NCBI RefSeq assembly: GCF_027942865.1
Contig: NC_134515.1
Location: 16,221,227 to 16,285,226 of the forward strand
Source: Odontesthes bonariensis
Lineage: Eukaryota; Chordata; Actinopteri; Atheriniformes; Atherinopsidae
Direction: 5' to 3'
DNA length: 64,000 bases
In this document: positions 9,529 through 63,393 of the stretch, in pieces
Numbering within the stretch: the stretch's first letter is position 1
Layout of the letters: every line of letters begins with the position of its first letter
Notes under the pieces: generated by a model
Told to the model about the DNA's origin: nothing
The model's database searches: none
What the model saw: the letters and a program-made list of their open reading frames with translations, nothing else
Position numbers and translations under genes: made by a program

Positions 9529-9573
9529 CCCAACACGAGTACACGACCGCATTTTTGTCTGCAAAAGATATCC

Positions 9574-10399
9574 ATGGAGACATACTGGTCTACATTAGGT
9601 GCACTGTTTTTATTATTTGGTGTATTCAGGGACTCTTCTGCAGGTTTCTCTGAAGGACCTGGTATGCTAATTTTGTTCTACATATACACGTGTTTAATGT
9701 ATAATATACCGTGTTTGCTGTTTCCATCTAAAAATGCACATTTGCTTATTCAACCGAGTTAATAATCAGGCAGTTTAGTTCATGTTAAACCAGCTCATTT
9801 TCATGTGAGTGTCTGTCAAAATGGACCTGCCTGTGTGCCTCCTGTTATCAGTAAGACTAAGAATGTTCACTCGAGAATATGTTAAATCTTCCCAGGGAAT
9901 GAGGAGATGTAGAGCTCAAGCCTGGACAGTTTATCAATGAGCAACAAACAATGTCATTTACTCACAAGACATACTTTCTGTCTGAAATGTTAACTTCTAC
10001 TGCTGTTCTACAAGGCTTTGCATGTATTTCTTTCATTTTTCCCTAAGCAGAGATGCAGTGTCCCGTCCCATATCAGCCCATCAGTCATTGTGGTATACTT
10101 TGCTTTCATGACTTTGACTGTCCAGGTGGTCAAAAGTGCTGCTCCATTGGGTGTGGTGTAGAGTGCACTGAACCAATTTTAGGTAAGATATAATCAAACT
10201 GGTAACACCCCCAGATTCTCTCCCTATACTCCTACCAGAACATTTAGCAATTTAGTGCTTTCTGACAGTGAAACCAGGTGGCTGTGGTCCCAGCTCCCCA
10301 GTTGCTCGTGGGAGGTCCTGCTCTCACGATGGCGATTGTCCAGGACGCCTGAAGTGCTGCAAGTCAATCAACGGTCCTAAATGCAAAAACCCTCGATGA
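9574..10399 (+). CDS. unit A secreted two-WAP protein
   Basis: Three coding exons at 9574-9661, 10051-10182 and 10269-10399, with phase-1 GT-AG introns, give 116 residues. Exon 1 encodes a signal peptide (core LGALFLLFGVF, likely cleavage after DSSA). Exon 2 encodes a full eight-Cys WAP with first loop CPVPYQPISHC and the core QKCCSIGCGVEC. Exon 3 encodes a basic WAP-like domain with six cysteines: the second and seventh are gone (CCKSIN replaces CC-x3-C). In the WAP fold Cys2 pairs with Cys7, so three disulfides should remain. ATTAAA at 10467-10472, followed by a GT-rich stretch, is a likely polyadenylation signal. The protein is secreted; an antimicrobial or protease-binding role is inferred from the family. 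The start is fixed by the signal peptide. Confidence 0.87.
9801..9850 (+). pseudogene. relic of an ancestral first WAP exon
   Basis: This piece of intron 1 aligns to the 3' end of exon 2 of the gene at 496. It still reads GPACVPPV in the frame matching GSVCVPPV and keeps the splice donor GTAAGA. The 5' part of the exon, with its acceptor and first five cysteines, is missing. The intron on its right aligns to the matching intron of the older gene. The same relic sits in all other units (B 15506-15555, C 21222-21271, D 30058-30107, E 35779-35828, F 42303-42352, G 47127-47176, H 52826-52875, I 58523-58572, J 62768-62817). The loss therefore preceded amplification. Confidence 0.72.
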
Positions 10400-13300
10400 T
10401 TGGACAATGAGAAAATGCATCATGCATCCTTGGATGAACTTGTTTGGTTTCTCCAATGCTACATTGATTAAAATGTTTGTGCATTACTTATATGTGTGGG
10501 TGTTTTTCTGCTTTGCCATAAGGCTGACAATATGTATTTCATCTGTATCTGTAAATGGAAATGAGAGCACAGAGCAAGGTTGTCTTACAACTTTACATTC
10601 GGCTAGATCATCTTTCCCCATGCCTTTTCTGCTCAATCTCAACAGCAAATATGTAATAATTAAGTTGGGTCACTTTTAAATGTACTAGTGTCACAAATCT
10701 GTAGGTGCAAATAGTGAGATGGAAATGCAAAATGTCTGATACATTTTTTTTTTTAAATTTGCCCTCTATTAAGTCGTGTACATGTAAACTTCACTGAGTA
10801 CATCATTCAATTAAAACCTAAGCAATACTGTACACTTTTAACCATAATCATTCATGAGACTGGGTGGGAAGCAGAATTGTGCAGTATCTGGCCTTGATGA
10901 GTCTCAAAGTCCATGCTCTTGCACAAAGATACACAGATTTGCACCTCCTGCCACTACTTCCTTTCTGCTTGTAAGCATTTGTGGCCAAATGAGCATCTGG
11001 AAAGTGGGCACATTTCTGTATAAACACTTATTGTCACAAATTTCAAAACTTCAGCTGCATCTTTGTTGGATTGATATTAAACGAAACGATTGTTTTTGGA
11101 TTACAGCATCTCTGCATTAGATAAACTTATGAATATGTGCCCTTCCTGCATGTTTACACTTTAACGTGAAAATAACTAGACCAGCAGATACCTCCAGTGC
11201 CTAAGCAACCCGAAGTTGTTCACTCCCAGAAAGGCCAGTGAATCATGCCTATAAAGGTCATTCATCAATGTGACCTCTTTATGACTGACAACATCATTCC
11301 ACCTTAGGTCTGAAATATTGAGCAGTTGAGCAGAACTGCTCAATATGCTTGAGCAGTAGTAAATATCTGCTTTTTTTGCTCTTTGAGTGTGGACCATTTT
11401 ATTCATATTTTTACCAATTAACAAAACTGTTGCAATTCACATTTTCTGGAATATATTAACGATACATGCCTTAGCTTAATTGATAGACAAATTCATACAT
11501 ATCCTACGCTATTCTATTGGGTCAGTAACAGGGTCTTGAACTAACCTCCCAAGGATTAGCAGTGCCGGACCTTTTAATTGTTCCCTGAACAGCACATGCA
11601 AGCAATAATCTACAAAATGAACCAAAGGAGCTTTAATAACCAACATATAGAACAAAAAAAAAAAAAAATTGGTGCTTTTTGCACAATTGAATATGTTTAG
11701 GATCTCCAAAAGTTAGAATGTTTGAAGTAAATTTGTAGTAGAAATTAAACAACTGAGTTGCTCTTGGACTCACTGGGCACCAAAGTTTAGGAGGTTACTT
11801 TGGAACCCAGTGATGATGTTCCTCCACCCCATGGACATCAACTCTTCCTTCTCTTCATGCCAACATCATGGTTTGAGACTGATCTTTCTTGGTTCAGGGT
11901 GATCAATCTCTGATGGTCCTGTGGCAGCGGATGAATCACTCATGGAATCCTTATGGATCATGGAGTCGTTATAAAAGAAATCTTTTCCTTCACACTTTGC
12001 TACTTTGTTCGTTCTCTTGTTGAATAGCGCCCAACCTCTTCAAGGCCATACCTCTACAGAAAAGCAGATTTAGTCTGTCCTTATATGGAAAAAATGACAT
12101 CTATGTCTGAAGAAATCTACAGTCTCATCTTCTCGAACACCTGACTCTACTGGCTTTCGGTAAAGTCAGTAACATGGACACTCACATACGTTTTCCAGGC
12201 TTGGTTTGTTCAATCAAGATCAGAAGTAAAACTTTATTTATGTTATCAGTTTAATCACAGCGACAAAGATGACGACCACATGCCTCTTTATGGGGGATTA
12301 AAGTTCTGATAAATTAAGGGTTCAGAACCTTTTTTGTTGGCCATTTGCTTGAAAAACAAACAGCTTGCAGCTACCCAAATTTTCCCAATATGTGGAGTGC
12401 CGATTTAACTGTTGGGTTTGTTTTCTCTCAGTCTGGCAGAATTGGGAACATGTTTGTCTACACTAAAGTGGGAACTACGTAGGAAGTCAGTCATGTTTTA
12501 GCTCAGATGTGATTTATCACTGCCAGAAAACAGAACATAAATGTTTGTCACTTTATTAAAAATGCGATTATACTAAAGCTGAGTCACAGCAACTGTATAG
12601 ACTGTAACATTTCACATGCTAATCTCTCAGAATTAAGTTTAGAAGAGCATGACAGAGCACAGTGTCCAAAAACTCCAGTTACTATAAGATGAACTGAAAC
12701 CTCATTATCTGATGAGTTATTAATGATTGGTTTATTTCAACGAGCCAAAGCATTTTTATCATGGAAACGTTCAGACGGTGGCATATAACATTCAAGCATG
12801 CATCCAAAAGTCAGTTCAAATTATGTATGGGGGCCGTTTCCTTTTTTTTTTTTAAATATCAGTAGTTCAATATAAGCAATGTCTTTGCTTAAGGATATAG
12901 TCAGCAAAAAACAAACAAAAAACAATGTTCATGTCTTGTCAATAGTTTTGTCAGGTGGGCAATAAGAATCCACAAGGGACAGTTAAAAGGTCGGACTGTT
13001 AGTGCTTTTGGAAATGCAATGTTTGGCTTTTGGAAACCTGATCACCGAGTCTTGGCTGAGGTTGTTTTTAAAAAAGAAAATGTCATTCTGACAGAGTCAC
13101 TGTGACTTAATGTGCCATTATATCTTATCTCACTTGGTGGGGAGATGGCAAACAGCAGGTCAGAAGCACAGAGGAAGAGTAAAGGGAACAATCTTTCTGC
13201 ATAGGCTGAAACATGAGTGGAGATAAATTGGTCTCAACATAACTAGAGTAATTTACTTGTTTGAAACAGTAAAATTACGTCTCAGCAGTAAAGTTACTGT

Positions 13301-13666
13301 TTCAAAACATCCTCAAAACCATCAACCCAAAACACAGATTTAGTCACCACAGCATCTCATACAGCCTTAGTTCCTTCTACTCGTCAGAGAAATCCAAAGG
13401 TTTGACTTTCTATTGAAAGAAGACAAACATCCACTTTTTTTCTTTCTTTTTCCCCAATAAACCCAGCAGGAAATCATCCTGAATACATTAATATTGAAGA
13501 AAATGATTTGTCCTCTTCCATTTGAGGTGGGAAAAAAAACTCAAGTTGTTCTTTAAAACATTCAGTTTTTCAGTTCTTCCCTGAATATGAACTGTTCCAG
13601 TGGTTTCACCAAAAAGGAAAAGGGTTTTTTGAAGAAGAAGAAGTCAGTGGGCCCTATAATGCGAAC
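10400..13666. other. unit A spacer
   Basis: This is the 3' UTR and spacer, shared with units B, D, E, G and H. It holds a perfect 13-base-arm hairpin (11315-11327 with 11334-11346, six-base loop), a second one (13260-13272 with 13294-13306), a poly-A run near 11647, and the block 13081-13185 that also follows the older gene. The last 200 to 300 bases are probably the 3' UTR of the pigt copy on the minus strand. Short open frames here have no family match or coding signature that I recognise. Confidence 0.55.
11315..11346. repeat. conserved perfect hairpin
   Basis: Arms ATATTGAGCAGTT and AACTGCTCAATAT flank the loop GAGCAG. Identical arms occur at B 17019-17050, D 31574-31605, E 37295-37326, G 48637-48668 and H 54334-54365. 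Function unknown; it could be a small structured RNA element or chance carried along by duplication. Confidence 0.6.
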
Positions 13667-13826
13667 TCATAGCGGTGGTACACCCCTCATGTTGCGGATG
13701 ATGTTGGCTATCCGCTTCGCCAGGCCCGGTTTGGGCTCCTCTATCCGGAAGCTTCGGGTCAGTAGATTGTAGAGGGAGCCGTAGCCCACTGCCACAACAG
13801 TGCAGGTCAGGCAGATGACATTATAA
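13667..13826 (-). pseudogene. pigt: pigt last-exon fragment, unit A
   Basis: On the minus strand this encodes the C-terminus of PIG-T, the GPI transamidase subunit of the endoplasmic reticulum. It includes the membrane-segment motif [17 protein letters not shown] and the family's terminal RGVPPL before the stop at 13667-13669. Only the part from YNV onward remains, because an L2 LINE end abuts it at about 13827. The frame is open, but no other pigt exons are nearby, so this is a gene fragment. PIGT and WFDC2 are also neighbours in human 20q13, so the association reflects old synteny. Confidence 0.85.
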
Positions 13827-15278: not shown

Positions 15279-16104
15279 ATGGAGACATACTGGTCAACAT
15301 TAGGTGCACTGTTTTTATTATTTGGTGTATTCAGGGACTCTTCTGCAGGTTTCTCTGAAGAACCTGGTATGCTAATTTTGTTCTACATATACACGTGTTT
15401 AATGTATAATATACCGTGTTTGCTGTTTCCATCTAAAAATGCACATTTGTTTATTCAACTGAGTTAATAATCAGGCAGTTTAGTTCATGTTAAACCAGCT
15501 TATTTTCATGTGAGTGTCTGTCAAAATGGACCTGCCTGTGTGCCTCCTGTTATCAGTAAGACTAAGAATGTTCACTCGAGAATATGTTAAATCTTCCCAG
15601 GGAATGAGGAGATGTAGAGCTCAAGCCTGGACAGTTTATCAATGAGCAACAAACAATGTCATTTACTCACAAGACATACTTTCTGTCTGAAATGTTAACT
15701 TCTACTGCTGTTCTACAAGGCTTTGCATGTATTTCTTTCATTTTTCCCTTAGCAGAGATGCAGTGTCCCTTCCTACCTCTGCCCATCACTCATTGTGGTA
15801 TACTTTGCTATCATGACTTTGACTGTCCAAGTGGTCAGAAGTGCTGCTCCTTTGGGTGTGGTGTACAGTGCACTGAACCAATATTAGGTAAGATATAATC
15901 AAACTGGCAACACCCCCAGATTCTCTCCCTATACTCCTACCAGAACATTTAGCAATTTAGTGCTTTCTGACAGTGAAACCAGGTGGCTGTGGTCCCAGCT
16001 CCCCAGTTGCTCATGGGAGGTCCTGCTCTCACGATGGCGATTGTCCAGGACGCCTGAAGTGCTGTATGTCAATCTACGGTCCTAAATGCAAAAACCCTCG
16101 ATGA
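15279..16104 (+). CDS. unit B secreted two-WAP protein
   Basis: Exons at 15279-15366, 15756-15887 and 15974-16104 give 116 residues. The first WAP has all eight cysteines but a hydrophobic first loop, CPFLPLPITHC, quite unlike the unit A loop. Compared by eye with unit A, the 132-base exon differs at about a dozen positions, most of them changing the residue, whereas the following 86-base intron differs at one. The last domain has the six-Cys pattern with CCMSIY where Cys7 would be. Signal peptide identical to unit A apart from the last residues. Relic exon at 15506-15555. Confidence 0.86.
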
Positions 16105-19385: not shown

Positions 19386-19545
19386 TCATAGCGGTGGCAC
19401 ACCCCTCATCTTGCGGATGATGTTGGCTATCCGCTTCGCCAGGCCCGGGTTGGGCTCTTCTATCTGGAAGCTTCGGGTCAGTAGATTGTAGAGGGAGCCG
19501 TAGCCCACTGCCACAACAGTGCAGGTCAGGCAGATGACATTATAA
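19386..19545 (-). pseudogene. pigt: pigt last-exon fragment, unit B
   Basis: Same fragment as in unit A, reading from YNVICL to RGVPPL on the minus strand, with the sequence [13 protein letters not shown] in place of [13 protein letters not shown]. It breaks off at the same L2 junction. Confidence 0.83.
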
Positions 19546-20994: not shown

Positions 20995-21817
20995 ATGGAG
21001 ACATACTGGTCTACATTAGGTGCACTGTTTTTATTATTTGGTGTATTCAGGGACTCTTCTGCAGGTTTCTCTGGAGAACCTGGTATGCTAATTTTGTTCT
21101 ACATATACACGTGTTTAATGTATAATATACCGTGTTTGCTATTTCCATCTAAAAGTGCACATTTGTTTATTCAACCGAGTTAAAAATCAGGCAGTTTAGT
21201 TCATGTTAAACCAGCTTATTTTCATGTGAGTGTCTGTCAAAATGGACCTGCCTGTGTGCCTCCTGTTATCAGTAAGACTAAGAATGTTCACTCGAGAATA
21301 TGTTAAATCTTCCCAGGGAATGAGGAGATGTAGAGCTCAAGCCTGGACAGTTTATCAATGAGCAACAAACAATGTCATTAACTCACAAGACATACTTTCT
21401 GTCTGAAATGTTAACTTCTACTGCTGTTCTACAAGGCTTTGCATGTATTTCTTTCATTTTCCCCTAAGCAGAGATGCAGTGTCCTGTCCCAGATGGGCCC
21501 AGTCATTGTGGTATATTTTGCTCTCATGACAGTGACTGTCCAGGTGGTCAGAAGTGCTGCTCCATTGGGTGTGGTGTAGACTGCACTGTACCAATATTAG
21601 GTAAGATATAATCAAACTGGCAACACCCCCAGATTCTCTCCCTATACTCCTACCAGAACATTTAGCAATTTAGTGCTTTCTGACAGTGAAACCAGGTGGC
21701 TGTGGTCCCAGCTTCTACGTTGCTTATGGGAGGTCCTGCTCTCATGATGGTGATTGTCCAGGAGAACAGAAGTGCTGCAAGTCAATCTACGGTCTGAAAT
21801 GCAAATACCCTCAATAA
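20995..21817 (+). CDS. unit C secreted two-WAP protein
   Basis: Exons at 20995-21082, 21472-21600 and 21687-21817 give 115 residues. The first WAP has a one-residue shorter first loop, CPVPDGPSHC, and CSHDSDC between cysteines 3 and 4. It is of the same type as units G and I. The last domain is the second version found in the array ([24 protein letters not shown]), again without Cys2 and Cys7. The gene looks intact. The BEL/Pao fragment starts 660 bases after the stop, so the normal distal spacer and the pigt piece are absent from this unit. Confidence 0.86.
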
Positions 21818-22476: not shown

Positions 22477-23429
22477 TCAAAGATAACTTCAAATGATCAT
22501 ACCACGCTGCTGTGTGCCTGCTGACTTTGGAAAAGTGGTAAAAAGGGAGCGACATCACTTCTCAGACGCAAGCACACAAGGTTATGGCCAGTGCTCGTAC
22601 TTGAGACATGTAAATGAGGCTGGAGATGTTCATCGTACTCTGATCATGGGAAAATCCAGAGTAACTCCAATTAAGGTGACGACTATTCCCAGGCAACAGT
22701 TGACAGCTGCCGTTGTGTCAGTTGCAGCAAGCAACACCTTGAAAGAGGAACTTGGATTGGCAGACATTGATGAATATTTCTGGACCTATTCCAAAGTGGT
22801 TCTGGGATATGTAAATAATGAGGCACGTCGTTTCCACACATTCGTGTCAAACCGGATACAGAAAATACATCTGAGTACAACTCCTTAGCAGTGGAGATAC
22901 GTCTCTACTAATGAGAACCCTGCAGACCTTGCGTCAAGATGTTCAACTGCAAATGAGATTCTCACATCCAACTGGCTCACAGGACCTCAGTTTCTATGGA
23001 AGAAGGAGCTACAACCAGCTGTAGATGTCATCACAGAAATGCAGATCGGAGATCCTGAAGTCAAAAGGATCCAGACACTAAACACACAAACAGTAGAGAA
23101 AATGAGGCTTATAGATCGACTTTCAAAGTTTTCTTCATGGTCAAAAGTCACTCTGTTGCTCGTCTCATCCGTTGTGCTAGAGGAGATAAGTCAACAGATC
23201 TTAGCAGAGTACAAGAACGAGAGGATGCACAGTGTGTCATTATAAAAGACTTACAGAGACAAGTGTACTCAGAAGAGATACGGTTGCTGAGTAAGAAGAC
23301 TCAACTTTCTCCTCAGAGCAAACTTTACAAGATGGATGCCTTTCTTGATCAGGATGGACTCCTCAGGGTGGGAGGAAGACTGAAAAATGCATCTCTCCCT
23401 ACCACAGTCAAGCATCCAGTGATAATCCC
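22477..23429 (+). mobile_element. BEL/Pao element fragment, left part (unit C)
   Basis: Encodes pieces resembling the RNase H region and the zinc-binding start of the integrase of BEL/Pao LTR elements (for example FSDASTQGYGQ and NPADLASR). It is a broken fossil fragment with no LTR of its own visible. The junction with unit DNA at about 22477 is the same as in unit I (59777), so both came from one event spread by duplication. A second element interrupts it after 23429. Confidence 0.8.
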
Positions 23430-23792
23430 TGTGTTGTCCTCACTGCAGTGTATTAACTGAAGCTATCCAACAAGTTAAAATCTGATGCAATAACCAGGAG
23501 TCTGTACTGTAGTTAACATTTCACTGTTGTTTACTTGAAGAATCCAGCATCACATGGCAGAGTGAAAATTGCAACAAACAAAGTTTGACTGTTTTTAACA
23601 TAAAGTTTAGCTTGACATGAAGTCTCATGAAATATCCTTGTAAGTACATGTAAATAAAAACGATCTTTTAAACCTATTTATTACCTTCTCTTTCAACTTT
23701 ATACTTAACTTAATCCATTAATTATTTAACTTGAATAATGAAATTTAGTTACGACTTTACTTCTAGCATCGTTCACGGTCAGGAATACTTAA

Positions 23793-26818: not shown

Positions 26819-27875
<1,057 letters not shown>

Positions 27876-28003
27876 ACTGAGTAGGAAGTAACTGATGACA
27901 AGGCAGGAAGTGGTAAGAAAGTTACAGGAAACCGTATCAAAATAAAAGGTGTCATTATAAAGGTCTTTATATATATATATCGCCCTAATGGCGACACAAT
28001 CCC

Positions 28004-28770
28004 AAAGGATCATCACATTTCCAGAACAATAATAGCTCATTGTCATGAAAAGGTGCAACATCAAGGCAAAGGTATGACTATTAATGAGCTCAGAACACAG
28101 GGATATTGGGTTCAAGGAATGAACAGAGCTGTGGCAACTTACCTTCATCAGTGTGTTCGATGCAGAAAACTCAGAAGGTTCACAGAGGAATAGCAGATGG
28201 CAGATCTACCATCAGAGCGTGTGGATCCATCACCACCATTCACCTACTGTGGAATGGATTGTTTCGGTCCATTTCTCACCAAACAAGGACGCAAAGTGCA
28301 AAAACGATATGGTCTCCTTATCACATGCCTCAGCTGTCGAGCCATCCACATCGAAATGTTGGATGACATGTCAACTGATTCCTTCATTAACGGACTGCGT
28401 TGTTTTATTGCCATAAGAGGGGCAGTGCGTCAGATAAGATCTGATCAAGGAACTAATTTCATGGGAGCAAAGAATGAACTAAAAGAAGCTCTCAAACAAG
28501 TGGATGCTGATCATCTGACCACGTTTTTAGCAGAGAAACAATGTGATTTTCTCATGAACACTCCCCATGCTAGCCATGTAGGAGGTGTTTGGGAACGACA
28601 GATCAGGACAGTGAGAAATGTTCTCCGTTCCACTCTCTCACTCTCATCAAGCAGACTAGACGATGCCTCTCTGCGAACATTCTTTTATGAAGCTATGGCT
28701 ATTGTGAAGAGTCATCCATTGACGGTTAACAATCTGAGCGATCCAAATAGTCCAGACTGTTTATCAAGAT
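28004..28770 (+). mobile_element. BEL/Pao element fragment, right part (unit C)
   Basis: Continuation of the fragment interrupted at 23429. It encodes integrase-like sequence (GMDCFGPF, SDQGTNFMGAKNE, HASHVGGVWERQI) typical of the DDE core of BEL/Pao. Fossil and broken. The shared unit flank follows it. Confidence 0.8.
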
Positions 28771-29089
28771 CCTAGAATGCTTATAATCCTAGTACATTAG
28801 CTCCTACACTTTTTTTTTTTCTCACTGATAAATTTGTTTTAAAAAAGTCTCTTCCACAAATTATCTCTGGACAATTAACTTCTTTGGACACTGTGTTGAT
28901 TAGAGTTTCCACACATGTAATTCACATCAGGAGGCCATATAAGTCAGTCTCAGGAGTAGAAAAAGAAATTGGTTTATTCAAACAAGTAGAGGCTCCACGG
29001 TAGAGTGTGCAGGAGAAAGGATTTGATGCAATATGTGACCGTGTAAAGGGTTCGTGATTTGTCAATAGACAATAGTGTCTCAAGCTAAT
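28771..29089. repeat. shared flank between BEL/Pao fragment and unit D
   Basis: Matches 61320-61654 before unit J and, apart from the extra insert, 7508-8690 before unit A. It holds a poly-T run and no gene. The last 100 bases, from AGAGGCTCC onward, are also what follows the L2 tail in the other unit ends. Confidence 0.55.
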
Positions 29090-29830: not shown

Positions 29831-30656
29831 ATGGAGACATACTGGTCTACATTAGGTGCACTGTTTTTATTATTTGGTGTATTCAGGGACTCTTCTGCAG
29901 GTTTCTCTGGAGAACCTGGTATGCTAATTTTGTTCTACATATACACGTGTTTAATGTATAATATACCGTGTTTGCTGTTTCCATCTAAAAATGCACATTT
30001 GTTTATTCAACTGAGTTAATAATCAGGCAGTTTAGTTCATGTTAAACCAGCTTATTTTCATGTGAGTGTCTGTCAAAATGGACCTGCCTGTGTGCCTCCT
30101 GTTATCAGTAAGATTAAGAATGTTCACTCGAGAATATGTTAAATCTTCTCAGGGAATGAGGAGATGTAGAGCTCAAGCCTGGACAGTTTATCAATGAGCA
30201 ACAAACAATGTCATTAACTCACAAGACATACTTTCCGTCTGAAATGTTAACTTCTACTCCTGTTCTACAAGGCTTTGCATGTATGTCTTTCATTTTCCCC
30301 TAAGCAGAGATGCAGTGTCCTGTCCCAGATCAGCCCTTCAGTCATTGTGGTATACTTTGCTATCATGACTTTGACTGTCCAGGTGGTCAGAAGTGCTGCT
30401 CCATTGGGTGTGGTGTACAGTGCACTGTACCAATATTAGGTAAGATATAATCAAACTGGTAACACCCCCAGATTCTCTCCCTATACTCTTACCAGAACAT
30501 TTAGCAATTTAGTGCTTTCTGACAGTGAAACCAGGTGGCTGTGGTCCCAGCTCCCCAGTTGCTCGTGGGAGGTCCTGCTCTCACGATGGCGATTGTCCAG
30601 GACGCCAGAAATGCTGCAAGTCAATCTACGGTCCTAAATGCAAAAACCCTCGATGA
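29831..30656 (+). CDS. unit D secreted two-WAP protein
   Basis: Exons at 29831-29918, 30308-30439 and 30526-30656 give 116 residues. First WAP loop CPVPDQPFSHC, then CYHDFDC and GCGVQC; this is the unit A/B type with single differences. The last domain is also the A/B version (SSPVARGRSC, GRQKCCKSIYGPKC). The upstream region is about 150 bases shorter than in other units (a gap around 29450), which may matter for distal regulation but leaves the proximal promoter intact. Confidence 0.86.
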
Positions 30657-33952: not shown

Positions 33953-34662
33953 TCATAGCGGTGGCACACCCCTCATCTTGCGGATGATGTTGGCTATCCA
34001 CTTCGCCAGGCCCGGGTTGGGCTCTTCTATCTGGAAGCTTCGAGTCAGTAGATTGTAGAGGGAGCCGTAGCCCACTGCCACAACAGTGCAGGTCAGGCAG
34101 ATGACATTATAAGGCATGCTGAAGTCTGGAGTAGGCAAGTTGACCAGCAGAGGCTCCGTGTAGACACGCACAAAGTAGCTAGACTCCTCTTTACAAGGGA
34201 AACTGGTGGGAGATGAGGAACCTCAATGGTTATTTGATTTTCCAGACAAAAAGTGCACAAATAGCAAGCAGCAAAAAGTATTTCCACGAGTCAAAAAAAA
34301 TAAAACTATACTTACAAGCTGCTGAAAAGTGGTTGTTCCTGAGTGATGTTTGTATCCATGGCGACAGCGCTTGGTACAAGAGAGCTGATAATTGAGGACC
34401 TAAATGTAAAGAAACAAATTTTTCTTGTTTTGAATGTCAGTAAGTCAACACTTTTTACTAAAAATCCCCATATCAGAACTATATATTCATATGTCGCTTC
34501 AAAGACAAAATTTCAAGATGAAGTTCAAACATGTGTCTGGAAACAGTCAAAAAATGCATACCCAACATAGAAGCCATGGTTGGGATCTGGTGTGTACTCA
34601 GTCCATTTAAGCAGAGCCCTCTCAAACTGCACCGTAACCTCGGTAACGGAGTGAGGTTACGG
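33953..34662 (-). pseudogene. pigt: pigt fragment with three terminal exons, unit D
   Basis: Minus-strand exons at 34562-34662 (partial; ends DPNHGFYVG), 34316-34399 ([16 protein letters not shown] to QPLFSS) and 33953-34202 ([19 protein letters not shown] to RGVPPL and stop). They join in frame through GT-AG introns and match the C-terminal third of the lumenal and membrane part of PIG-T. The first exon is cut at the unit junction, so the rest of the gene is absent and no complete protein can be made. Units D and E are the only ones to keep this longer form without an L2 insertion. The copy appears undamaged where present, which implies a recent origin from a functional gene. Confidence 0.85.
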
Positions 34663-35551: not shown

Positions 35552-36377
35552 ATGGAGACATACTGGTCTACATTAGGTGCACTGTTTTTATTATTTGGTG
35601 TATTCAGGGACTCTTCTGCAGTTCCCCCTGGAGAACCTGGTATGCTAATTTTGTTCTACATATACACGTGTTTAATGTATAATACACCGTGTTTGCTGTT
35701 TCCTTCTAAAAGTGCACATTTGTTTATTCAACCGAGTTAATAATCAGGCAGTTTAGTTCATGTTAAACAAGCTTATATTCATGTGAGTGTCTGTCAAAAT
35801 GGACCTGCCTGTGTGCCTCCTGTTATCAGTAAGATTAAGAATGTTTACTCGAGAATATGTTAAATCTTCCCAGGGAATGAGGAGATGTAGAGCTCAAGCC
35901 TGGAAAGTTTATCAATGAGCAACAAACAATGTCATTAACTCACAAGACATACTTTCAGTCTGAAATGTTAACTTCTACTCCTGTTCTACAAGGCTTTGCA
36001 TGTATTTATTTCATTTTCCCCTAAGCAGAGATGCATTGTCGCAACACAATTGGGCCCCCAGGGGGGTGTGTTGATCTTTGCTCTAATGACAGTGACTGTT
36101 CAGATGGTAAGAAGTGCTGCCCCACTGCGTGTTGGTATCAGTGCGTTGTACCAACATCAGGTAAGATATAATCAAACTGGCAACACCCCCAGATTCTCTC
36201 CCTATACTCCTACCAGAACATTTAGCAATTTAGTGCTTTCTGACAGTGAAACCAGGTGGCTGTGGTCCAAGCTTCTACGTTGCTTATGGGAGGTCCTGCT
36301 CTCATGATGGTGATTGTCCAGGAGAACAGAAGTGCTGCAAGTCAATCTACGGTCTTAAATGCAAATACCCTCAATAA
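35552..36377 (+). CDS. unit E secreted two-WAP protein
   Basis: Exons at 35552-35639, 36029-36160 and 36247-36377 give 116 residues. The signal exon ends SSAVPPGEPG, unlike the SSAGFS of the others. The first WAP is the most divergent type: first loop CRNTIGPPGGC, CVDLC between cysteines 2 and 3, and ACWYQC near the end, where other units have GCG. It keeps all eight cysteines. Only unit J shares this type. The last domain is the FYVAYG version, identical in protein to that of unit C. Confidence 0.85.
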
Positions 36378-38522: not shown

Positions 38523-38526
38523 TTAA

Positions 38527-40498: not shown

Positions 40499-41195
40499 TC
40501 ATAGCGGTGGCACACCCCTCATCTTGCGGATGATGTTGGCTATCCGCTTCGCCAGGCCCGGGTTGGGCTCTTCTATCTGGAAGCTTCGAGTCAGTAGATT
40601 GTAGAGGGAGCCGTAGCCCACTGCCACAACAGTGCAGGTCAGGTAGATGACATTATAAGGCATGCTGAAGTCTGGAGTAGGCAAGTTGACCAGCAGAGGC
40701 TCCGTGTAGACACGCACAAAGTAGCTGGACTCCTCTTTACAAGGGAAACTGGTGAGAGATGAGGAACCTCGATGGTTATTTGACTTTCCAGACAAAAAGT
40801 GCACAAATAGCAAGCAGCAAAAAGTATTTCCACGAGTCAAAAAAAATAAAACTATACTTACAAGCTGCTGAAAAGTGGTTGTTCCTGAGTGATGTTTGTA
40901 TCCATGGCGACAGCGCTTGGTACAAGAGAGCTGATAATTGAGGACCTAAATGTAAAGAAACAAATTTTTCTTGTTTTGAATGTCAGTAAGTCAACACTTT
41001 TTACTAAAAATCCCCATATCAGAACTATATATTCATATGTCGCTTCAAAGACAAAATTTCAAGATGAAGTTCAAACATGTGTCTGGAAACAGTCAAAAAA
41101 TGCATACCCAACATAGAAGCCATGGTTGGGATCTGGTGTGTACTCAGTCCATTTAAGCAGAGCCCTCTCAAACTGCAACGTAACCTCGGTAACGG
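40499..41195 (-). pseudogene. pigt: pigt fragment with three terminal exons, unit E
   Basis: Exons at 41108-41195 (partial), 40862-40945 and 40499-40748, as in unit D, with the same splice sites and open frames. YNVICL reads YNVIYL here. The junction with the next unit is the plain AACGG to TCATTTGC join; unit D has a 14-base local repeat at this point. Confidence 0.85.
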
Positions 41196-42084: not shown

Positions 42085-42901
42085 ATGGAGACATACTGGT
42101 CTACATTAGGTGCACTGTTTTTATTATTTGGTGTATTCAGGGACTCTTCTGCAGGTTTCTCTGGTATGCTAATTTTGTTCTACATATACACGTGTTTAAT
42201 GTATAATACACCGTGTTTGCTGTTTCCTTCTAAAAGTGCACATTTGTTTATTCAACCGAGTTAATAATCAGGCAGTTTAGTTCATGTTAAACCAGCTTAT
42301 TTTCATGTGAGTGTCTGTCAAAATGGACCTGCCTGTGTGCCTCCTGTTATCAGTAAGATTAAGAATGTTTACTCGAGAATATGTTAAATCTTCCCAGGGA
42401 ATGAGGAGATGTAGAGCTCAAGCCTGGACAGTTTATCAATGAGCAACAAACAATGTCATTAACTCACAAGACATACTTTCAGTCTGAAATGTTAACTTCT
42501 ACACCTGTTCTACAAGGCTTTGCATGTGTTTCTTTCATTTTCCCCTAAGCAGAGATGCAGTGTCCCTACATACATGGGCGGCCCGTGCATTGTGCTGAAC
42601 TTTGCTTTCGTGACAGTGACTGTCCACGTCGTCAGAAGTGCTGCTCCAATGGGTGTGGGCATCAGTGCACTGTACCAATATCAGGTAAGATATAATCAAA
42701 CTGGCAACACCCCCAGATTCTCTCCCTATACTCCTACCAGAACATTTAGCAATTTAGTGCTTTCTGACAGTGAAACCAGGTGGCTGTGGTCCCAGCTTCC
42801 CAGTTGCTCGTGAGAGGTCCTGCTCTCACGATGGTGATTGTCCAGGACGCCAGAAGTGCTGCAAGTCATTCTACGGTCTTAAATGCAAACACCCTCAATG
42901 A
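42085..42901 (+). CDS. unit F secreted two-WAP protein
   Basis: Exons at 42085-42163, 42553-42684 and 42771-42901 give 113 residues. The signal exon is nine bases shorter (no GEP codons), with the reading frame kept. First WAP: loop CPYIHGRPVHC, CAELC, then [14 protein letters not shown], a type shared only with unit H. The last domain is a mixture: SFPVARERSC and GRQKCC resemble units A, B and D, whereas GLKCKHPQ resembles the others. This suggests exchange between copies. Cys2 and Cys7 are missing as elsewhere. Confidence 0.85.
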
Positions 42902-45284: not shown

Positions 45285-45444
45285 TCATAGCGGTGGCACA
45301 CCCCTCATCTTGCGGATGATGTTGGCTATCCGCTTCGCCAGGCCCGGGTTGGGCTCTTCTATCTGGAAGCTTCGGGTCAGTAGATTGTAGAGGGAGCCGT
45401 AGCCCACTGCCACAACAGTGCAGGTCAGGCAGATGACATTATAA
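45285..45444 (-). pseudogene. pigt: pigt last-exon fragment, unit F
   Basis: Same short fragment as unit B, from YNV to RGVPPL, ending at the L2 junction. Confidence 0.83.
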
Positions 45445-46899: not shown

Positions 46900-47722
46900 A
46901 TGGAGACATACTGGTCTACATTAGGTGCACTGTTTTTATTATTTGGTGTATTCAGGGACTCTTCTGCAGGTTTCTCTGGAGGACCTGGTATGCTAATTTT
47001 GTTCTACATATACACGTGTTTAATGTATAATATACCGTGTTTGCTATTTCCATCTAAAAGTGCACATTTGTTTATTCAACCGAGTTAATAATCAGGCAGT
47101 TTAGTTCATGTTAAACCAGCTTATTTTCATGTGAGTGTCTGTCAAAATGGACCTGCCTGTGTGCCTCCTGTTATCAGTAAGACTAAGAATGTTCACTCGA
47201 GAATATGTTAAATCTTCCCAGGGAATGAGGAGATGTAGAGCTCAAGCCTGGACAGTTTATCAATGAGCAACAAACAATGTCATTTACTCACAAGACATAC
47301 TTTCTGTCTGAAATGTTAACTTCTACTGCTGTTCTACAAGGCTTTGCATGTATTTCTTTCATTTTCCCCTAAGCAGAGATGCAGTGTCCTGTCCCAGATG
47401 GGCCCAGTCATTGTGGTATACTTTGCTCTCATGACAGTGACTGTCCAGGTGGTCAGAAGTGCTGCTCCATTGGGTGTGGTGTAGACTGCACTGTACCAAT
47501 ATTAGGTAAGATATAATCAAACTGGCAACACCCCCAGATTCTCTCCCTATACTCCTACCAGAACATTTAGCAATTTAGTGCTTTCTGACAGTGAAACCAG
47601 GTGGCTGTGGTCCCAGCTTCTACGTTGCTTATGGGATGCCCTGCTCTCATGATGGTGATTGTCCAGGAGAACAGAAGTGCTGCAAGTCAATCTACGGTCT
47701 GAAATGCAAATACCCTCACTAA
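46900..47722 (+). CDS. unit G secreted two-WAP protein
   Basis: Exons at 46900-46987, 47377-47505 and 47592-47722 give 115 residues. First WAP loop CPVPDGPSHC and CSHDSDC, differing from unit C by a single residue in this exon (GILC against GIFC). The last domain reads [10 protein letters not shown] and ends KYPH, with Cys2 and Cys7 absent. Intact gene with the usual signal peptide. Confidence 0.86.
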
Positions 47723-50990: not shown

Positions 50991-51150
50991 TCATAGCGGT
51001 GGTACACCCCTCATCTTGCGGATGATGTTGGCTATCCGCTTCGCCAGGCCCGGTTTGGGCTCCTCTATCCGGAAGCTTCGGGTCAGTAGATTGTAGAGGG
51101 AGCCGTAGCCCACTGCCACAACAGTGCAGGTCAGGCAGATGACATTATAA
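50991..51150 (-). pseudogene. pigt: pigt last-exon fragment, unit G
   Basis: Short fragment. It shares the [13 protein letters not shown] variant with unit A, which hints that units A and G derive from one another at this end. Confidence 0.83.
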
Positions 51151-52598: not shown

Positions 52599-53421
52599 AT
52601 GGAGACATACTGGTCTACATTAGGTGCACTGTTTTTATTAGTTGGTGTATTCAGGGACTCTTCTGCAGGTTTCTCTGGAGAACCTGGTATGCTAATTTTG
52701 TTCTACATATACACGTGTTTAATGTATAATATACCGTGTTTGCTGTTTCCATCTAAAAATGCACATTTGCTTATTCAACCGAGTTAATAATCAAGCAGTT
52801 TAGTTCATGTTAAACCAGCTTATTTTCATGTGAGTGTCTGTCAAAATGGACCTGCCTGTGTGCCTCCTGTTATCAGTAAGACTAAGAATGTTCACTCGAG
52901 AATATGTTAAATCTTCCCAGGGAATGAGGAGATGTAGAGCTCAAGCCTGGACAGTTTATCAATGAGCAACAAACAATGTCATTTACTCACAAGACATACT
53001 TTCTGTCTGAAATGTTAACTTCTACTGCTGTTCTACAAGGCTTTGCATGTATTTCTTTCATTTTCCCCTAAGTAGATGTGCAGTGTCCCAACATAGATGG
53101 GCCCTTGCATTGTGCTGAATTTTGCGTTGATGACAGTGACTGTCCAGGTCGTCAGAAGTGCTGCTCCAATGGGTGTGGGCATCAGTGCACTGTACCAATA
53201 TTAGGTAAGATATAATCAAACTGGAAACACCCCCAGATTCTCTCCCTATACTCCTACCAGAACATTTAGCAATTTAGTGCTTTCTGACAGTGAAACCAGG
53301 TGGCTGTGGTCCAAGCTTCTACGTTGCTTATGGGATGCCCTGCTCTCATGATGGTGATTGTCCAGGAGAACAGAAGTGCTGCAAGTCAATCAACGGTCTG
53401 AAATGCAAATACCCTCACTAA
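52599..53421 (+). CDS. unit H secreted two-WAP protein
   Basis: Exons at 52599-52686, 53076-53204 and 53291-53421 give 115 residues. The acceptor before exon 2 reads AAGTAG instead of AAGCAG, and the exon starts DVQC rather than EMQC. First WAP: loop [28 protein letters not shown], the unit F type with further changes and a more acidic face. The signal core has LLVGVF instead of LLFGVF, a change shared with unit J. Last domain GMPC, CCKSIN, ending KYPH. Confidence 0.85.
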
Positions 53422-56400: not shown

Positions 56401-56686
56401 ACTCGTCAGAGAAATCCAAAGGTTTGACTTTCTATTGAAAGAAGACAAACATCCACTTTTTTTCTTTCTTTTTCCCCAATAAACCCAGCAGGAAATCAAC
56501 CTGAATACATTAATATTGAAGAAAATGATTTGTCCTCTTCCATTTGAGGTGGGAAAAAAAACTCAAGTTGTTCTTTAAAACATTCAGTTTTTCAGTTCTT
56601 CCCTGAATATGAACTGTTCCAGTGGTTTCACCAAAAAGGATAAGGTTTTTTTCGAAGAAGAAGTCAGTGGGCCCTATAATGCGAAC
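53422..56686. other. unit H spacer
   Basis: Standard spacer with the hairpin at 54334-54365. No supported gene. Confidence 0.55.
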
Positions 56687-56846
56687 TCATAGCGGTGGCA
56701 CACCCCTCATCTTGCGGATGATGTTGGCTATCCGCTTCGCCAGGCCCGGGTTGGGCTCTTCTATCTGGAAGCTTCGGGTCAGTAGATTGTAGAGGGAGCC
56801 GTAGCCCACTGCCACAACAGTGCAGGTCAGGCAGATGACATTATAA
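56687..56846 (-). pseudogene. pigt: pigt last-exon fragment, unit H
   Basis: Short fragment of the unit B and F version ([13 protein letters not shown]), ending at the L2 junction. Confidence 0.83.
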
Positions 56847-58295: not shown

Positions 58296-59118
58296 ATGGA
58301 GACATACTGGTCTACATTAGGTGCACTGTTTTTATTATTTGGTGTATTCAGGGACTCTTCTGCAGGTTTCTCTGGAGAACCTGGTATGCTAATTTTGTTC
58401 TACATATACACGTGTTTAATGTATAATATACCGTGTTTGCTATTTCCATCTAAAAGTGCACATTTGTTTATTCAACCGAGTTAAAAATCAGGCAGTTTAG
58501 TTCATGTTAAACCAGCTTATTTTCATGTGAGTGTCTGTCAAAATGGACCTGCCTGTGTGCCTCCTGTTATCAGTAAGACTAAGAATGTTCACTCGAGAAT
58601 ATGTTAAATCTTCCCAGGGAATGAGGAGATGTAGAGCTCAAGCCTGGACAGTTTATCAAAGAGCAACAAACAATGTCATTAACTCACAAGACATACTTTC
58701 TGTCTGAAATGTTAACTTCTACTGCTGTTCTACAAGGCTTTGCATGTATTTCTTTCATTTTCCCCTAAGCAGAGATGCAGTGTCCTGTCGCAGATGGGCC
58801 CAGTCATTGTGGTATACTTTGCTTTCATGACAGTGACTGTCCAGGTGGTCAGAAGTGCTGCTCCATTGGGTGTGGTGTAGATTGCACTGTACCAATATTA
58901 GGTAAGATATAATCAAACTGGCAACACCCCCAGATTCTCTCCCTATACTCCTACCAGAACATTTAGCAATTTAGTGCTTTCTGACAGTGAAACCAGGTGG
59001 CTGTGGTCCCAGCTTCTACGTTGCTTATGGGATGCCCTGCTCTCATGATGGTGATTGTCCAGGAGAACAGAAGTGCTGCAAGTCAATCTACGGTCTGAAA
59101 TGCAAATACCCTCAATAA
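58296..59118 (+). CDS. unit I secreted two-WAP protein
   Basis: Exons at 58296-58383, 58773-58901 and 58988-59118 give 115 residues. First WAP loop CPVADGPSHC and CFHDSDC, close to units C and G. Last domain GMPC with CCKSIYGLKC and ending KYPQ. As in unit C, a BEL/Pao fragment starts about 660 bases after the stop, so the two units are sisters for their 3' half. Confidence 0.86.
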
Positions 59119-59776
59119 CTGGACAATGAGAAAATGCAACATGCATCCTTGGATGAACTTGTTTGGTTTCTCCAATGCTACATTGATTAAAATGTTTGTG
59201 CATTACTTATATGTGTGTGGGTGTTTTTCTGCTTTGCCATATGGCTGATAATATGTATTTCATCTGTATCTGTAAATGGAAATGAGAGCACAGAGCAAGG
59301 TTGTCTTACAACTTTACATTCGGCTTGATCATCTTTCCCCATGCCTTTTCTGCTCAGTCTCAACAGCAAATATGTAATAATTAAGTTGGGTCACTTTTAA
59401 ATGTACTAGTGTCACAATCTGTAGGTGCAAATAGTGAGATGGAAATGCAAAATGTCTCATACTTTTTTTTTTTTTTAATTTGCCCTCTATTAAGTCGTGT
59501 ACATGTAAACTTCACTGAGTATATCATTCAATTAAAACCCAAGCAATACATACACTTTTAACCATAATCATTCATGGGACTGGGTGGGAAGCAGAATCGT
59601 GCAGTATCTGGCCTTGATGAGTCTCAAAGTCCATGCTCTTGCACAAAGATACACAGATTTGCACCTCCTGCCACTACTTCCTTTCTGCTTGTAAGCATTT
59701 GTGGCCAAATGAGCATCTGGAAAGTGGGCACATTTCTGTATAAACACTTATTGTCACAAATTTCAAAACTTCAGCT

Positions 59777-61345
59777 TCAAAGATAACTTCAAATGATCAT
59801 ACCACGCTGCTGTTTTCCTGCTGACTTTGGAAGAGTGGTAAAAAGGGAGCAACATCACTTCTCAGACGCAAGCACACAAGGTTATGGCCAGTGCTCGTAC
59901 TTGAGACATGTAAATGAGGCTGAAGATGTTCATTGTACTCTGATCATGGGAAAATCCAGAGTAACTCCAATTAAGGTGACGACTATTCCCAGGCTAGGGT
60001 TGACAGCTGCCGTTGTGTCAGTTGCAGCAAGCAACACCTTGAAACAGGAACTTGGATTGGCAGACATTGATGAATATTTCTGGACCGATTCCAAAGTGGT
60101 TCTGGGATATGTAAATAATGAGGCACGTCGTTTCCACACATTCGTGTCAAACTGGATACAGAAAATACATCTGAGTACAACTCCTCAGCAGTGGAGATAC
60201 GTCTCTACTAATGAGAACCCTGCAGACCTTGCGTCAAGATGTTCAACTGCAAATGAGATTCTCACATCCAACTAGCTCACAGAACCTCAGTTTCTATGGA
60301 AGAAGAAGCTACAACCAGCTGTAGATGTCATCACAGAAATGCAGATCGGAGATCCTGAAATCAAAAGGATCCAGACACTAAACACACAAACAGTAGAGAA
60401 AATGAGGCTTATAGATCGACTTTCAAAGTTTTCTTCATGGTCAAAAGTCACTCTGTTGCTCGTCTCATCCGTTGTGCTAGAGGAGATAAGTCAACAGATC
60501 TTAGCAGAGTACAAGAACGAGAGGATGCACAGTGTGTGATTATAAAAGACTTACAGAGACAAGTGTACTCAGAAGAGATAAGGTTGCTGAGTAAGAAGAC
60601 TCAACTTTCTCCTCAGAGCAAACTTTACAAGATGGATGCCTTTCTTGATCAGGATGGACTCCTCAGGGTGGGAGGAAGACTGAAAAATGCATCTCTCCCT
60701 ACCACAGTCAAGCATCCAGTGATAATCCCAAAGGATCATCACATTTCCAGAACAATAATAGCTCATTGTCATGAAAAGGTGCAACATCAAGGCAAAGGTA
60801 TGACTATTAATGAGCTCAGAACACAGGGATATTGGGTTCAAAGAATGAACAGAGCTGTGGCAACTTACCTTCATCAGTGTGTTCGATGCAGAAAACTCAG
60901 AAGGTTCACAGAGGAACATCGAAATGTTGGATGACATGTCAACTGATTCCTTCATTAACGGACTGCGTTGTTTTATTGCCATAAGAGGGGCAGTGCGTCA
61001 GATAAGATCTGATCAAGGAACTAATTTCATGGGAGCAAAGAATGAACTAAAGGAAGCTCTCAAACAAGTGGATGCTGATCGTCTGACCACGTTTTTAGCA
61101 GAGAAACAATGTGATTTTCTCATGAACACTCCCCATGCTAGCCATATAGGAGGTGTTTGGGAACGACAGATCAGGACAGTGAGAAATGTTCTCCGTTGCA
61201 CTCTCTCACTCTCATCAAGCAGGCTAGACGATGCCTCTCTGCGAACATTCTTTTATGAAGCTATGGCTATTGTGAACAGTCGTCCATTGACGGTTAACAA
61301 TCTGAGCGATCCAAATAGGCCTGTTTATCAAGATCCTAGGCTGCA
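59777..61345 (+). mobile_element. BEL/Pao element fragment, unit I
   Basis: The same fossil fragment as in unit C, covering RNase H-like and integrase-like sequence, with the same left junction. It lacks the nested element, so it carries the pre-insertion site near 60725-60735. It is broken, with a few breaks. Confidence 0.8.
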
Positions 61346-61654
61346 TATAATCCTAGTACATTAGCTCCTACACTTTTTTTTTCTTTCTCACTGATAAATT
61401 TGTTTTAAAAAAGCCTCTTCCACAAATTATCTCTGGACAATTAACTTCTTTGGACACTGTGTTGATTAGAGTTTCCACACATGTAATTCACATCAGGAGG
61501 CCATATAAGTCAGTCTCAGGAGTAGAAAAAGAAATTGGTTTATTCAAACAAGTAGAGGCTCCACGGTAGAGTGTGCAGGAGAAAGGATTTGATGCAATAT
61601 GTGACCGTGTAAAGGGTTCGTGATTTGTCAATAGACAATAGTGTCTCAAGCTAA
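61346..61654. repeat. shared flank between BEL/Pao fragment and unit J
   Basis: Matches the flank before unit D almost base for base. No gene. Confidence 0.55.
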
Positions 61655-62540
61655 TCATTTGCTCTCCTGGACATCATGAAAAACATTTTACTTGGGAACT
61701 AGCAGGGGGAAATGTCCACAATATCCTGTTGATTGACCTGTGCATATCTAAATTGTCAAGAAAAATTTCAAGGCTTCAGATAATACAGTATGTTAAAATG
61801 GCTTACATTGTTATTCCCTTTATTCTTAGCGTGACTTACGAGTCTGTCGTTGTTTTATTTTCAGTTTTAATATAAAACCAAGGAAATCAGAGTAAACACA
61901 AAAGAAGCCATTGACATTAAAGGATACAAACATCAATAAACATAAAAATTTGAATACTATTTGAAATACAAACAAAATAACAAAAAGAAATGAGATCCTT
62001 TTTTTAATAACTTTAGACCTTTAATAGACACAAGTATAAAGGAAACTATTAGTGTTAAGCAGCCAACTTCAATGTATTAAGACAGAAAAAAAACACATTC
62101 AGCAGTAGTTGCAAAAAGGTGAAAAGAAAGACGAACATGTTATAAGCGCTCTACACTCAGCGGATTATCTGATGACAGGTGAGGGTTTCAGGATTATAAA
62201 AGATGCATAAAATACATCTTTTGAAAAAAATTAGCTCTTTAATGGTCATGTTAACAAAGAAAACAAGTTACAGCTCAAAATTAATTATCACAACTTTCTC
62301 ATTTCAACAATAAATAAATCTTTTTCTTGTGCAACGAAGAACATTTTATAAAATGCAACTGTACCAGTAAAAACAGCAAGAGGGCATCTGTTGTCACATC
62401 TTCCCAGAGATCTCGGGAGAATGTAACTAAACAGGCACAAGGGCCCAGAATCCTCTGTGCTGCTCAGCCTGAGGTTGGTGTAGTGGTATATTTGTCCCAA
62501 CACGAGTACATGACCGCATTTTTGTCTGCAAAAGATAACC

Positions 62541-63393
62541 ATGGAGACATACTGGTCTACATTAGGTGCACTGTTTTTATTAGTTGGTGTATTCAGGGAC
62601 TCTTCTGCAGGTTTCTCTGGAGAACCTGGTATGCTAATTTTGTTCTACATATACACGTGTTTAATGTATATTATACCGTGTTTGCTGTTTCCATCTAAAA
62701 ATGCACATTTGTTTATTCAACCGAGTTAATAATCAGGCAGTTTAGTTCATGTTAAACCAGCTTATTTTCATGTGAGTGTCTGTCAAAATGGACCTGCCTG
62801 TGTGCCTCCTGTTATCAGTAAGACTAAGAATGTTCACTCGAGAATATGTTAAATCTTCCCAGGGAATGAGGAGATGTAGAGCTCAAGCCTGGACAGTTTA
62901 TCAATGAGCAACAAACAATGTCATTAACTCACAAGACATACTTTCTGTCTGAAATGTTAACTTCTACTCCTGTTCTACAAGGCTTTGCATGTATTTATTT
63001 CATTTTCCCCTAAGCAGAGATGCAGTGTCCCAACACAGATGGGCACGTAGGGCCCTTAGGGCCCGTAGGGCCCGTAGGGCGGTGTGTTGATCTTTGCTCT
63101 CGTGACAGTGACTGTTCAGATGGTAAGAAGTGCTGCTCCACTGCGTGTTGGTATCAGTGCGTTGTACCAATATTAGGTAAGATATAATCAAACTGGCAAC
63201 ACCCCCAGATTCTCTCCCTATACTCCTACCAGAACATTTAGCAATTTAGTGCTTTCTGACAGTGAAACCAGGTGGCTGTGGTCCCAGCTTCTACGTTGCT
63301 TATGGGATGTCCTGCTCTCATGATGGTGATTGTCCAGGAGAACAGAAGTGCTGCAAGTCAATCTACGGTCTGAAATGCAAATACCCTCAATAA
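62541..63393 (+). CDS. unit J secreted two-WAP protein with an expanded loop
   Basis: Exons at 62541-62628, 63018-63176 and 63263-63393 give 125 residues. The first WAP is of the unit E type (CVDLC, ACWYQC). Its first loop is lengthened to 18 residues between cysteines 1 and 2 by repeats of a nine-base unit (GGGCCCGTA-like, 63041-63079) that encode GPL, GPV, GPV. The frame and all eight cysteines are kept. Other units have 8 or 9 residues there. The last domain is the GMSC, KYPQ version. The expansion could change what the loop binds, or it may simply be tolerated slippage. Confidence 0.85.

Follow-up and report, generated by a model that had tools for sequence, protein, structure and literature searches.

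Divergent exons between uniform introns in a tandem array of ten WAP genes beside PIGT in Odontesthes bonariensis

Mammalian trappins are tandem WAP genes in which exon 2 encodes a transglutaminase-substrate domain ahead of a single WAP domain and exon 3 is noncoding. Their exon 2 is reported to evolve faster than noncoding DNA by a factor of 4.4 in armadillo, 3.1 in cow and 12 in pig (JC rates), a pattern that is absent in elephant, hyrax and guinea pig (PMC2831891). The same study describes synonymous sites as accelerated too in armadillo and pig, for which the authors invoke unknown mechanisms, and the acceleration as limited to nonsynonymous sites in cow; it places a WFDC12 pseudogene inside trappin intron 1, and its text does not mention gene conversion. 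The premise of a first-pass annotation of the present locus, that mammalian trappins show faster exon than intron change, is on record for some species. According to two other reports, regions of high divergence persist amid gene conversion in red/green opsins, as described by a "peak of divergence" model (PMC3924837), and in copepod GOT1 duplicates (PMC3728101). Among the open-access search results listed, none dealt with a WAP array in a teleost.

WFDC2 (HE4) has two WAP domains, the second of them with eight cysteines, and elafin and SLPI possess a longer segment between cysteines 2 and 3 that carries the inhibitory loop. Mammalian WFDC2 adjoins PIGT and is called single-copy (PMC3426482). 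The 64,000-nt stretch analysed here (the window, whose positions are used throughout) comes from one Odontesthes bonariensis genome (GCF_027942865.1, NC_134515.1 16,221,227-16,285,226, forward strand) and holds ten intact tandem WAP-gene units, A to J, all on the + strand. These are unit A at 9574..10399 (exons 9574-9661, 10051-10182 and 10269-10399), B at 15279..16104 (15279-15366, 15756-15887, 15974-16104), C at 20995..21817 (20995-21082, 21472-21600, 21687-21817), D at 29831..30656 (29831-29918, 30308-30439, 30526-30656), E at 35552..36377 (35552-35639, 36029-36160, 36247-36377), F at 42085..42901 (42085-42163, 42553-42684, 42771-42901; exon 1 shortened at its end by an in-frame 9-base deletion), G at 46900..47722 (46900-46987, 47377-47505, 47592-47722), H at 52599..53421 (52599-52686, 53076-53204, 53291-53421), I at 58296..59118 (58296-58383, 58773-58901, 58988-59118) and J at 62541..63393 (62541-62628, 63018-63176, 63263-63393; in-frame 27-base insert in the Cys1-Cys2 loop). 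Every unit, A included, has an open frame with ATG and stop codon, interrupted by GT-AG introns in phase 1-1; the encoded proteins are all distinct, and none of the ten copies carries a premature stop or a frameshift. All ten also retain a TATATTT, which starts 54 bases 5' of the ATG, and an ATTAAA, which starts 68 bases 3' of the stop. A DNA search of the 945-Mb genome recovered ten copies, all inside the window, and no further unit outside it, the count being a lower bound.

Exon 2 (10051..10182 in unit A, + strand) encodes the hypervariable first WAP domain and has eight cysteine codons in 10/10 units, from which a four-disulfide core is predicted. Exon 3 (10269..10399, + strand) encodes a second WAP domain with six cysteine codons, again in all ten units; WAP-pattern positions 2 and 7 are missing from it, in contrast with the upstream gene described below, and it departs from the eight-cysteine form. 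The mature proteins thus have fourteen cysteines in every unit, and judged by an N-terminus that is hydrophobic by eye they are predicted to be secreted. The joined unit A protein matches the Pfam WAP model with E 1.6e-16, all four of the whole proteins scanned (A, E, H and J) lie above the curated PF00095 cut-off, and a PF00095 profile search of the genome matches exon 2 in all ten units and exon 3 in nine.

Like WFDC2, the fish genes have two WAP domains and PIGT as a neighbour, but the array is multi-copy and the second domain has six cysteines instead of eight. They differ from trappins in that exon 3 codes for a second, six-cysteine WAP domain and in that exchange between units is demonstrated (below); transglutaminase-substrate repeats were seen in none of the ten translations, inspected by eye. 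A WAP fold is predicted in common with elafin and SLPI, but their long Cys2-Cys3 inhibitory segment is replaced by three residues in 10/10 units of the alignment. Nawaprin also has three residues at this position, although the snake waprins (nawaprin, omwaprin) are venom proteins with one WAP domain and no sign of venom use was seen in the fish. A PDB sequence search returned nawaprin as best match (E 1.3e-5), and Foldseek with a model of exon 2 alone placed omwaprin first of 12 (E 0.014, none below 0.001); the model itself (pLDDT 77, pTM 0.48) is too weak for mapping sites in three dimensions. Mature-protein net charge spans -3 to +6, which does not point to an antimicrobial peptide that is cationic throughout the family. 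The exon 2 cysteine codons are identical across the ten units at 8/8 positions, and in exon 3 one of six varies, in one unit; expected changes were judged too few for these counts to carry meaning, and no position-specific conservation of cysteine codons is claimed.

Mean pairwise difference over the 45 pairs is 2.3% in exon 1, 2.2% in intron 1, 17.7% in exon 2, 0.8% in intron 2, 8.9% in exon 3 and 1.7% in the 3' flank. Exon 2 shows 0.543 minimum changes per site and exon 3 shows 0.214, the latter about three times the noncoding background (mean 0.070, maximum 0.134 in 147 overlapping 131-bp windows). Both this background and the trees omit the initial 130 alignment columns of the 5' flank (about 8600-8700), because E and F differ there in their upstream sequence and windows also reach 0.2. 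In sliding windows the divergence peaks end at the borders of exons 2 and 3. As in the trappins of some species, the coding exon is far more diverged among paralogues than the noncoding DNA. The strong variation of exon 2 beside near-identical introns that the first-pass annotation had described is borne out, together with its two examples: A and B differ by 12 changes over the 132 bases of the exon, of which 10 are nonsynonymous and 2 synonymous, and by one in the 86-base intron, and E and F by 23.5% in exon 2, 1.5% in intron 1 and 0% in intron 2. Its placing of the diversity in one exon holds insofar as exon 2 is the most divergent, but exon 3 diverges too, as does the mature N-terminus encoded by the exon 1 tail (9643..9661 in unit A, + strand; cleavage point assumed), with 6 changes in 19 bases versus 2 in 69 in the signal-peptide part.

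Intron 2 (10183..10268 in unit A, + strand; 86 bases) lies between two variable exons and is nearly invariant, with 3 minimum changes among the ten units, being as uniform as the distant flanks.

Minimum changes in exon 2 comprise 57 replacement and 5 synonymous ones (binomial p 0.007). Codon tests, made with our own code and assuming one tree per exon, so that within-exon exchange would disturb them, gave an M0 omega of 2.29 (dN/dS 2.3; p 0.018, bootstrap 0.037), and site models gave p values from 0.0017 to 5e-5 (M1a/M2a 0.0017; M8a/M8 3.6e-4), with candidate selected sites spread beyond one loop. Amino-acid changes in the first domain have outpaced the synonymous changes of exon 2 while every cysteine was kept, and their rate exceeds that of changes in introns and flanks about 7- to 9-fold. 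The coding changes, taken without the intron yardstick, support the view that diversifying selection has probably acted on the first WAP domain. For exon 3 alone, 17 replacement and 6 synonymous changes (p 0.78) with an omega of 0.91 revealed no significant positive class. Diversifying selection, as proposed from the sequence at the outset, is thus upheld for exon 2 and not for exon 3 taken alone; neither exon 2 divergence equal to that of the introns nor dN/dS at or below 1 throughout, the outcomes named there as contrary, was found.

Cross-tests (AU) among exon 2, exon 3, the 5' side and the 3' flank rejected the other region's topology in 12 of 12 cases (p below 0.001 in ten, highest 0.034) with bare topologies, and trees with branch lengths gave the same outcome. 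Mosaics are visible at informative sites, counted in unit A coordinates. Unit E, with F-like flanks and J-like exons, is F-like and not J-like at 33/35 sites in 8684-9999, J-like at 25/28 in 10000-10182 and at 13/15 in exon 3, and F-like again at 11/15 beyond. Unit G is mostly C-like to the stop codon (C-like and not B-like at 59/68 sites up to 10400) with a B-like 3' flank (13/13 beyond), and unit H combines a B-like 5' side (B-like and not F-like at 84/89 sites up to 10026), an F-like exon 2 (23/26 in 10027-10182) and a G-like exon 3 (G-like and not B-like at 22/22 sites in 10183-10400). Stretches of a few hundred bases containing exon 2, exon 3 or both have been swapped between units. Because of these exchanges the histories of the units are not tree-like, and a faster change of exon than of intron therefore mixes selection with sequence exchange.

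Synonymous sites diverge at three to four times the intron level, with synonymous tree lengths of 0.345 in exon 2 and 0.260 in exon 3 versus 0.086-0.094 in introns and flanks. Forcing the synonymous length to 0.085 is rejected (p 0.0024 for exon 2, 0.0115 for exon 3), and parsimony counts 11 synonymous changes against an expectation of 3.95 based on intron 1 (p 0.0026); with two-base changes allowed the excess becomes weaker and borderline (p 0.053 and 0.030, respectively). Neither GC-biased conversion nor a transition hotspot is supported: AT-GC differences are not overrepresented in exons 2 and 3 (Fisher p 0.40), and the share of transitions is not shifted (p 0.23).

The explanation that we consider probable, taken as a whole, is that the array is a young tandem set of a two-WAP-domain gene at a teleost PIGT-WFDC locus, shaped by positive selection on the first WAP domain and by exchange between units. 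Recurrent positive selection would favour novel protein surfaces while the disulfide scaffold stays fixed. Variants would spread among slots, and the noncoding DNA be kept alike, through gene conversion or unequal crossing-over, and exchanges that erase useful exon differences would be selected against. The driver might perhaps be a changing extracellular partner, be it a microbe, a protease or a reproductive counterpart, in line with proposals made for WAP proteins of mammals. The synonymous excess counts against this explanation, since it does not follow from selection acting only on replacements. That excess, and the exchange between units, speak for the rival "peak of divergence" reading, in which the exons are not fast and gene conversion homogenises introns and flanks while selection only preserves old exon differences. 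We regard this as unlikely, since on its own it does not yield the excess of replacement over synonymous changes seen in exon 2, and the uniform intron 2 would demand conversion tracts of less than about 86 bases; were the exon haplotypes old and protected, intron 2 should look old, yet it has its 3 changes versus 17 expected (P 3e-5). In opsins and GOT1 differences are mainly preserved, whereas in the fish array they also accumulate, with dN/dS above 1.

A mutational cause without selection, through clustered or multi-base mutation or GC-biased conversion in these exons, gains from the better fit of exon 2 with a two-base-change term (p 1.4e-4) but is very unlikely, because omega is still above 1, at 2.46 (p 0.030; M2a p 0.006), when the term is included, the AT-GC and transition comparisons give it no footing, frames and cysteines are kept in all ten units and the intron between the exons is spared. 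The deep splits among exon 2 groups (EJ, FH and the remainder) would suit divergent blocks that older WAP genes elsewhere, perhaps a lost donor, passed to the array by conversion. This is highly improbable given that the PF00095 search of the genome gave at least 5 matches outside the window, none of them close relatives (three we take to be anosmin-type, one WFDC1-like and one another domain), and that this search and the DNA search, both first-look with counts as lower bounds, revealed no donor loci elsewhere. Recent copies are often redundant and could drift under relaxed constraint, but drift should stay at or below the noncoding rate, which exon 2 exceeds nearly eightfold, and the lack of stops and frameshifts likewise makes this scarcely credible.

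A more tentative and rather doubtful possibility is that the array serves as a cassette reservoir, with exons 2 and 3 each moving as an independent module among ten promoter-intron slots that can stand in for one another, where multi-base patches, point replacements and short exchanges would make variants and the introns, including the 86-base one, would be constantly evened out. Such a process, if true, would also account for the synonymous acceleration of mammalian trappins. The fish case, with ten copies and independent of those genes, repeats the published pattern including that acceleration, and its alternation of divergent exons and uniform introns, together with visible exchange stretches, makes selection, conversion and multi-base change separable.

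The array adjoins PIGT, pieces of which lie in the right flank, and runs toward the PIGT 3' end. Seven spacers contain fragments of the PIGT last exon by tblastn, at 13670..13825 (- strand) in the unit A spacer and at 19389-19544, 33956-34162, 40502-40708, 45288-45443, 50994-51149 and 56690-56845. This link to PIGT suggests that PIGT-adjacent WFDC genes underwent separate expansion and diversification in fishes and in mammals. An older paralogue lies upstream at 496..1405 (+ strand), with PF00095 matches on its three WAP exons at about 720-863, 1053-1187 and 1278-1405 (ends by eye). Intron 1 of unit A holds a WAP-exon relic (9780..9855, + strand, limits by eye) whose acceptor and middle are deleted; it is similar in units C, E, H and J when the five units are aligned with the upstream gene's live exon, and recalls the WFDC12 pseudogene reported in trappin intron 1.

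The ten WAP gene units (A to J) are arranged head to tail, and each consists of a 3-exon gene in which exon 1 encodes a putative signal peptide and a short mature N-terminus, exon 2 the first WAP domain and exon 3 the second. All ten retain an open frame and GT-AG splice sites and encode ten different proteins; in every unit TATATTT starts 54 bases 5' of the ATG and ATTAAA starts 68 bases 3' of the stop. A DNA search of the genome (945 Mb, 187 contigs) with most of exon 3 and the 3' flank of a unit as query recovered at least 10 matches, all within the window, a lower bound given by a first-look search.

Mean pairwise difference among units (45 pairs) was 17.7% in exon 2, 8.9% in exon 3, 2.3% in exon 1, 2.2% in intron 1, 0.8% in intron 2 and 1.7% in the 3' flank. 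Minimum changes per site amounted to 0.543 in exon 2 and 0.214 in exon 3 versus a noncoding mean of 0.070 (maximum 0.134; 147 overlapping windows), bearing out the exon-biased divergence proposed in the first-pass annotation. This background excludes the initial 130 alignment columns on the 5' side (∼8600-8700), where units E and F carry other sequence and differences reach up to 0.2. Within exon 1, at least 2 changes occurred in the 69 bases of the signal-peptide part and 6 in the 19 bases of the mature N-terminus. Given that exon 2, exon 3 and the mature N-terminus have all diverged, it is the mature peptide that is variable; the proposed diversity of exon 2 thus stands, but not its restriction to that exon.

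Minimum changes in exon 2 comprise 57 replacement versus 5 synonymous changes (binomial p 0.007), and those in exon 3, 17 versus 6 (p 0.78). Summed NG86 dN/dS was 2.83 in exon 1, from few changes, 2.17 in exon 2 and 0.73 in exon 3. Maximum-likelihood codon models, run with our own code and not cross-checked against PAML, yielded an omega of 2.29 for exon 2 (p 0.018; parametric bootstrap of the average omega, 80 sets, p 0.037) and 0.91 for exon 3. Site models favored positive selection in exon 2 (M1a/M2a p 0.0017; M7/M8 p 5.5e-5; M8a/M8 p 3.6e-4), M2a assigning an omega of 4.0 to 57% of codons; the corresponding p values for exon 3 were 0.15, 0.14 and 0.052. Allowing two-base changes within codons improved the exon 2 fit (p 1.4e-4) and gave an omega of 2.46 (p 0.030); M2a was still favored in exon 2 (p 0.0059; exon 3, p 0.25), upholding the diversifying selection suggested earlier for the first WAP domain. 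Of the twelve exon 2 codons with posteriors >0.9 (naive empirical Bayes), five lie in the Cys 1-2 interval and two each in Cys 3-4 and Cys 7-8, while Cys 2-3, Cys 6-7 and the part 3' of Cys 8 contribute one each.

Synonymous sites are also more diverged than noncoding DNA, with tree lengths of 0.345 (exon 2) and 0.260 (exon 3) versus 0.086-0.094 outside. Forcing the synonymous length to 0.085 was rejected (p 0.0024 and 0.0115, respectively), and by parsimony 11 synonymous changes were observed versus 3.95 expected (p 0.0026). Old exons shielded against conversion could generate such an excess, yet intron 2, lying between both exons, shows 3 changes versus the 17 predicted by the synonymous rate. 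Part of the excess looks like multi-base change; with two-base changes allowed it becomes borderline (p 0.053 and 0.030). The array is a counterpart of the pattern known from trappins, mammalian WAP genes with exon-biased divergence. The trappin study (PMC2831891) describes the same synonymous excess in armadillo and pig, its mechanism being termed unknown by the authors, and acceleration in cow at nonsynonymous sites only. The fish array makes this open synonymous question testable.

The earlier interpretation is silent on exchange between units. In AU cross-tests of four regions (5' side, exon 2, exon 3 and 3' flank), the topology of the other region was rejected in 12 of 12 cases (p <0.001 in 10), most weakly for the 5' topology when tested with data of the 3' flank (AU p 0.034, SH p 0.098); agreement was confined to two overlapping regions, the 5' side and intron 1. 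Informative-site counts (unit A coordinates) revealed three mosaics. Unit E is F-like in 8684-9999 (33/35 sites), J-like in 10000-10182 (25/28), starting ∼50 bases inside intron 1, and in exon 3 (13/15), and F-like again in 10400-10990 (11/15). Unit G is C-like up to 10400 (59/68) and B-like beyond (13/13), and unit H is B-like up to 10026 (84/89), F-like in 10027-10182 (23/26) and G-like in 10183-10400 (22/22). Since minority sites occur within these stretches, the patterns are not clean single events; exchange may have proceeded by conversion or by unequal crossing-over, in either direction.

Just upstream (496-1405) lies an older paralogue comprising three WAP exons, the last of which has all eight Cys. 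In the five units aligned, intron 1 holds a decayed copy of its first WAP exon, with the donor end kept and the acceptor and middle deleted. In the units, exon 3 encodes six Cys, those corresponding to Cys 2 and Cys 7 of the upstream gene being absent. These two are disulfide partners in WAP domains, so that one whole disulfide seems to have been lost. PIGT is located to the right of unit J and of the window, on the opposite strand, and tblastn detected fragments of its last exon, duplicated along with the units, in seven spacers (reverse strand; 13670-13825, 19389-19544, 33956-34162, 40502-40708, 45288-45443, 50994-51149 and 56690-56845), an early duplication therefore having included its end. 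WFDC2 adjoins PIGT in mammals (PMC3426482). Broken retroelement pieces with integrase-like domains (22487-23457, 27885-28772 and 59787-61361; one below the Pfam cut-off), which we would guess to be of BEL/Pao type, occur in the spacers of both C and I, which fits a sister relationship of these two units. The C-D spacer also harbors an intronless Ras-family frame (26841-27515; Pfam Ras 5e-48), which resembles Ran and is probably a retrocopy.

The unit proteins are WAP by fold and by sequence, with a waprin/HE4-like Cys2-Cys3 spacing, unlike elafin, and a mature net charge of -3 to +6. This spacing and charge range do not point to a canonical elastase inhibitor or to a uniformly cationic killer; by analogy with relatives, a role in defence or reproduction may be suggested. 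In exon 2 of unit J (63018-63176), a 27-base in-frame insert yields a Gly-Pro-rich GPLGPVGPVG in the Cys1-Cys2 loop. Between Cys7 and Cys8, exon 2 of E (36029-36160) and J encodes Trp-Tyr (CWYQC), the other eight units having Gly-Val or Gly-His, and this may represent a small compensated frame slip.
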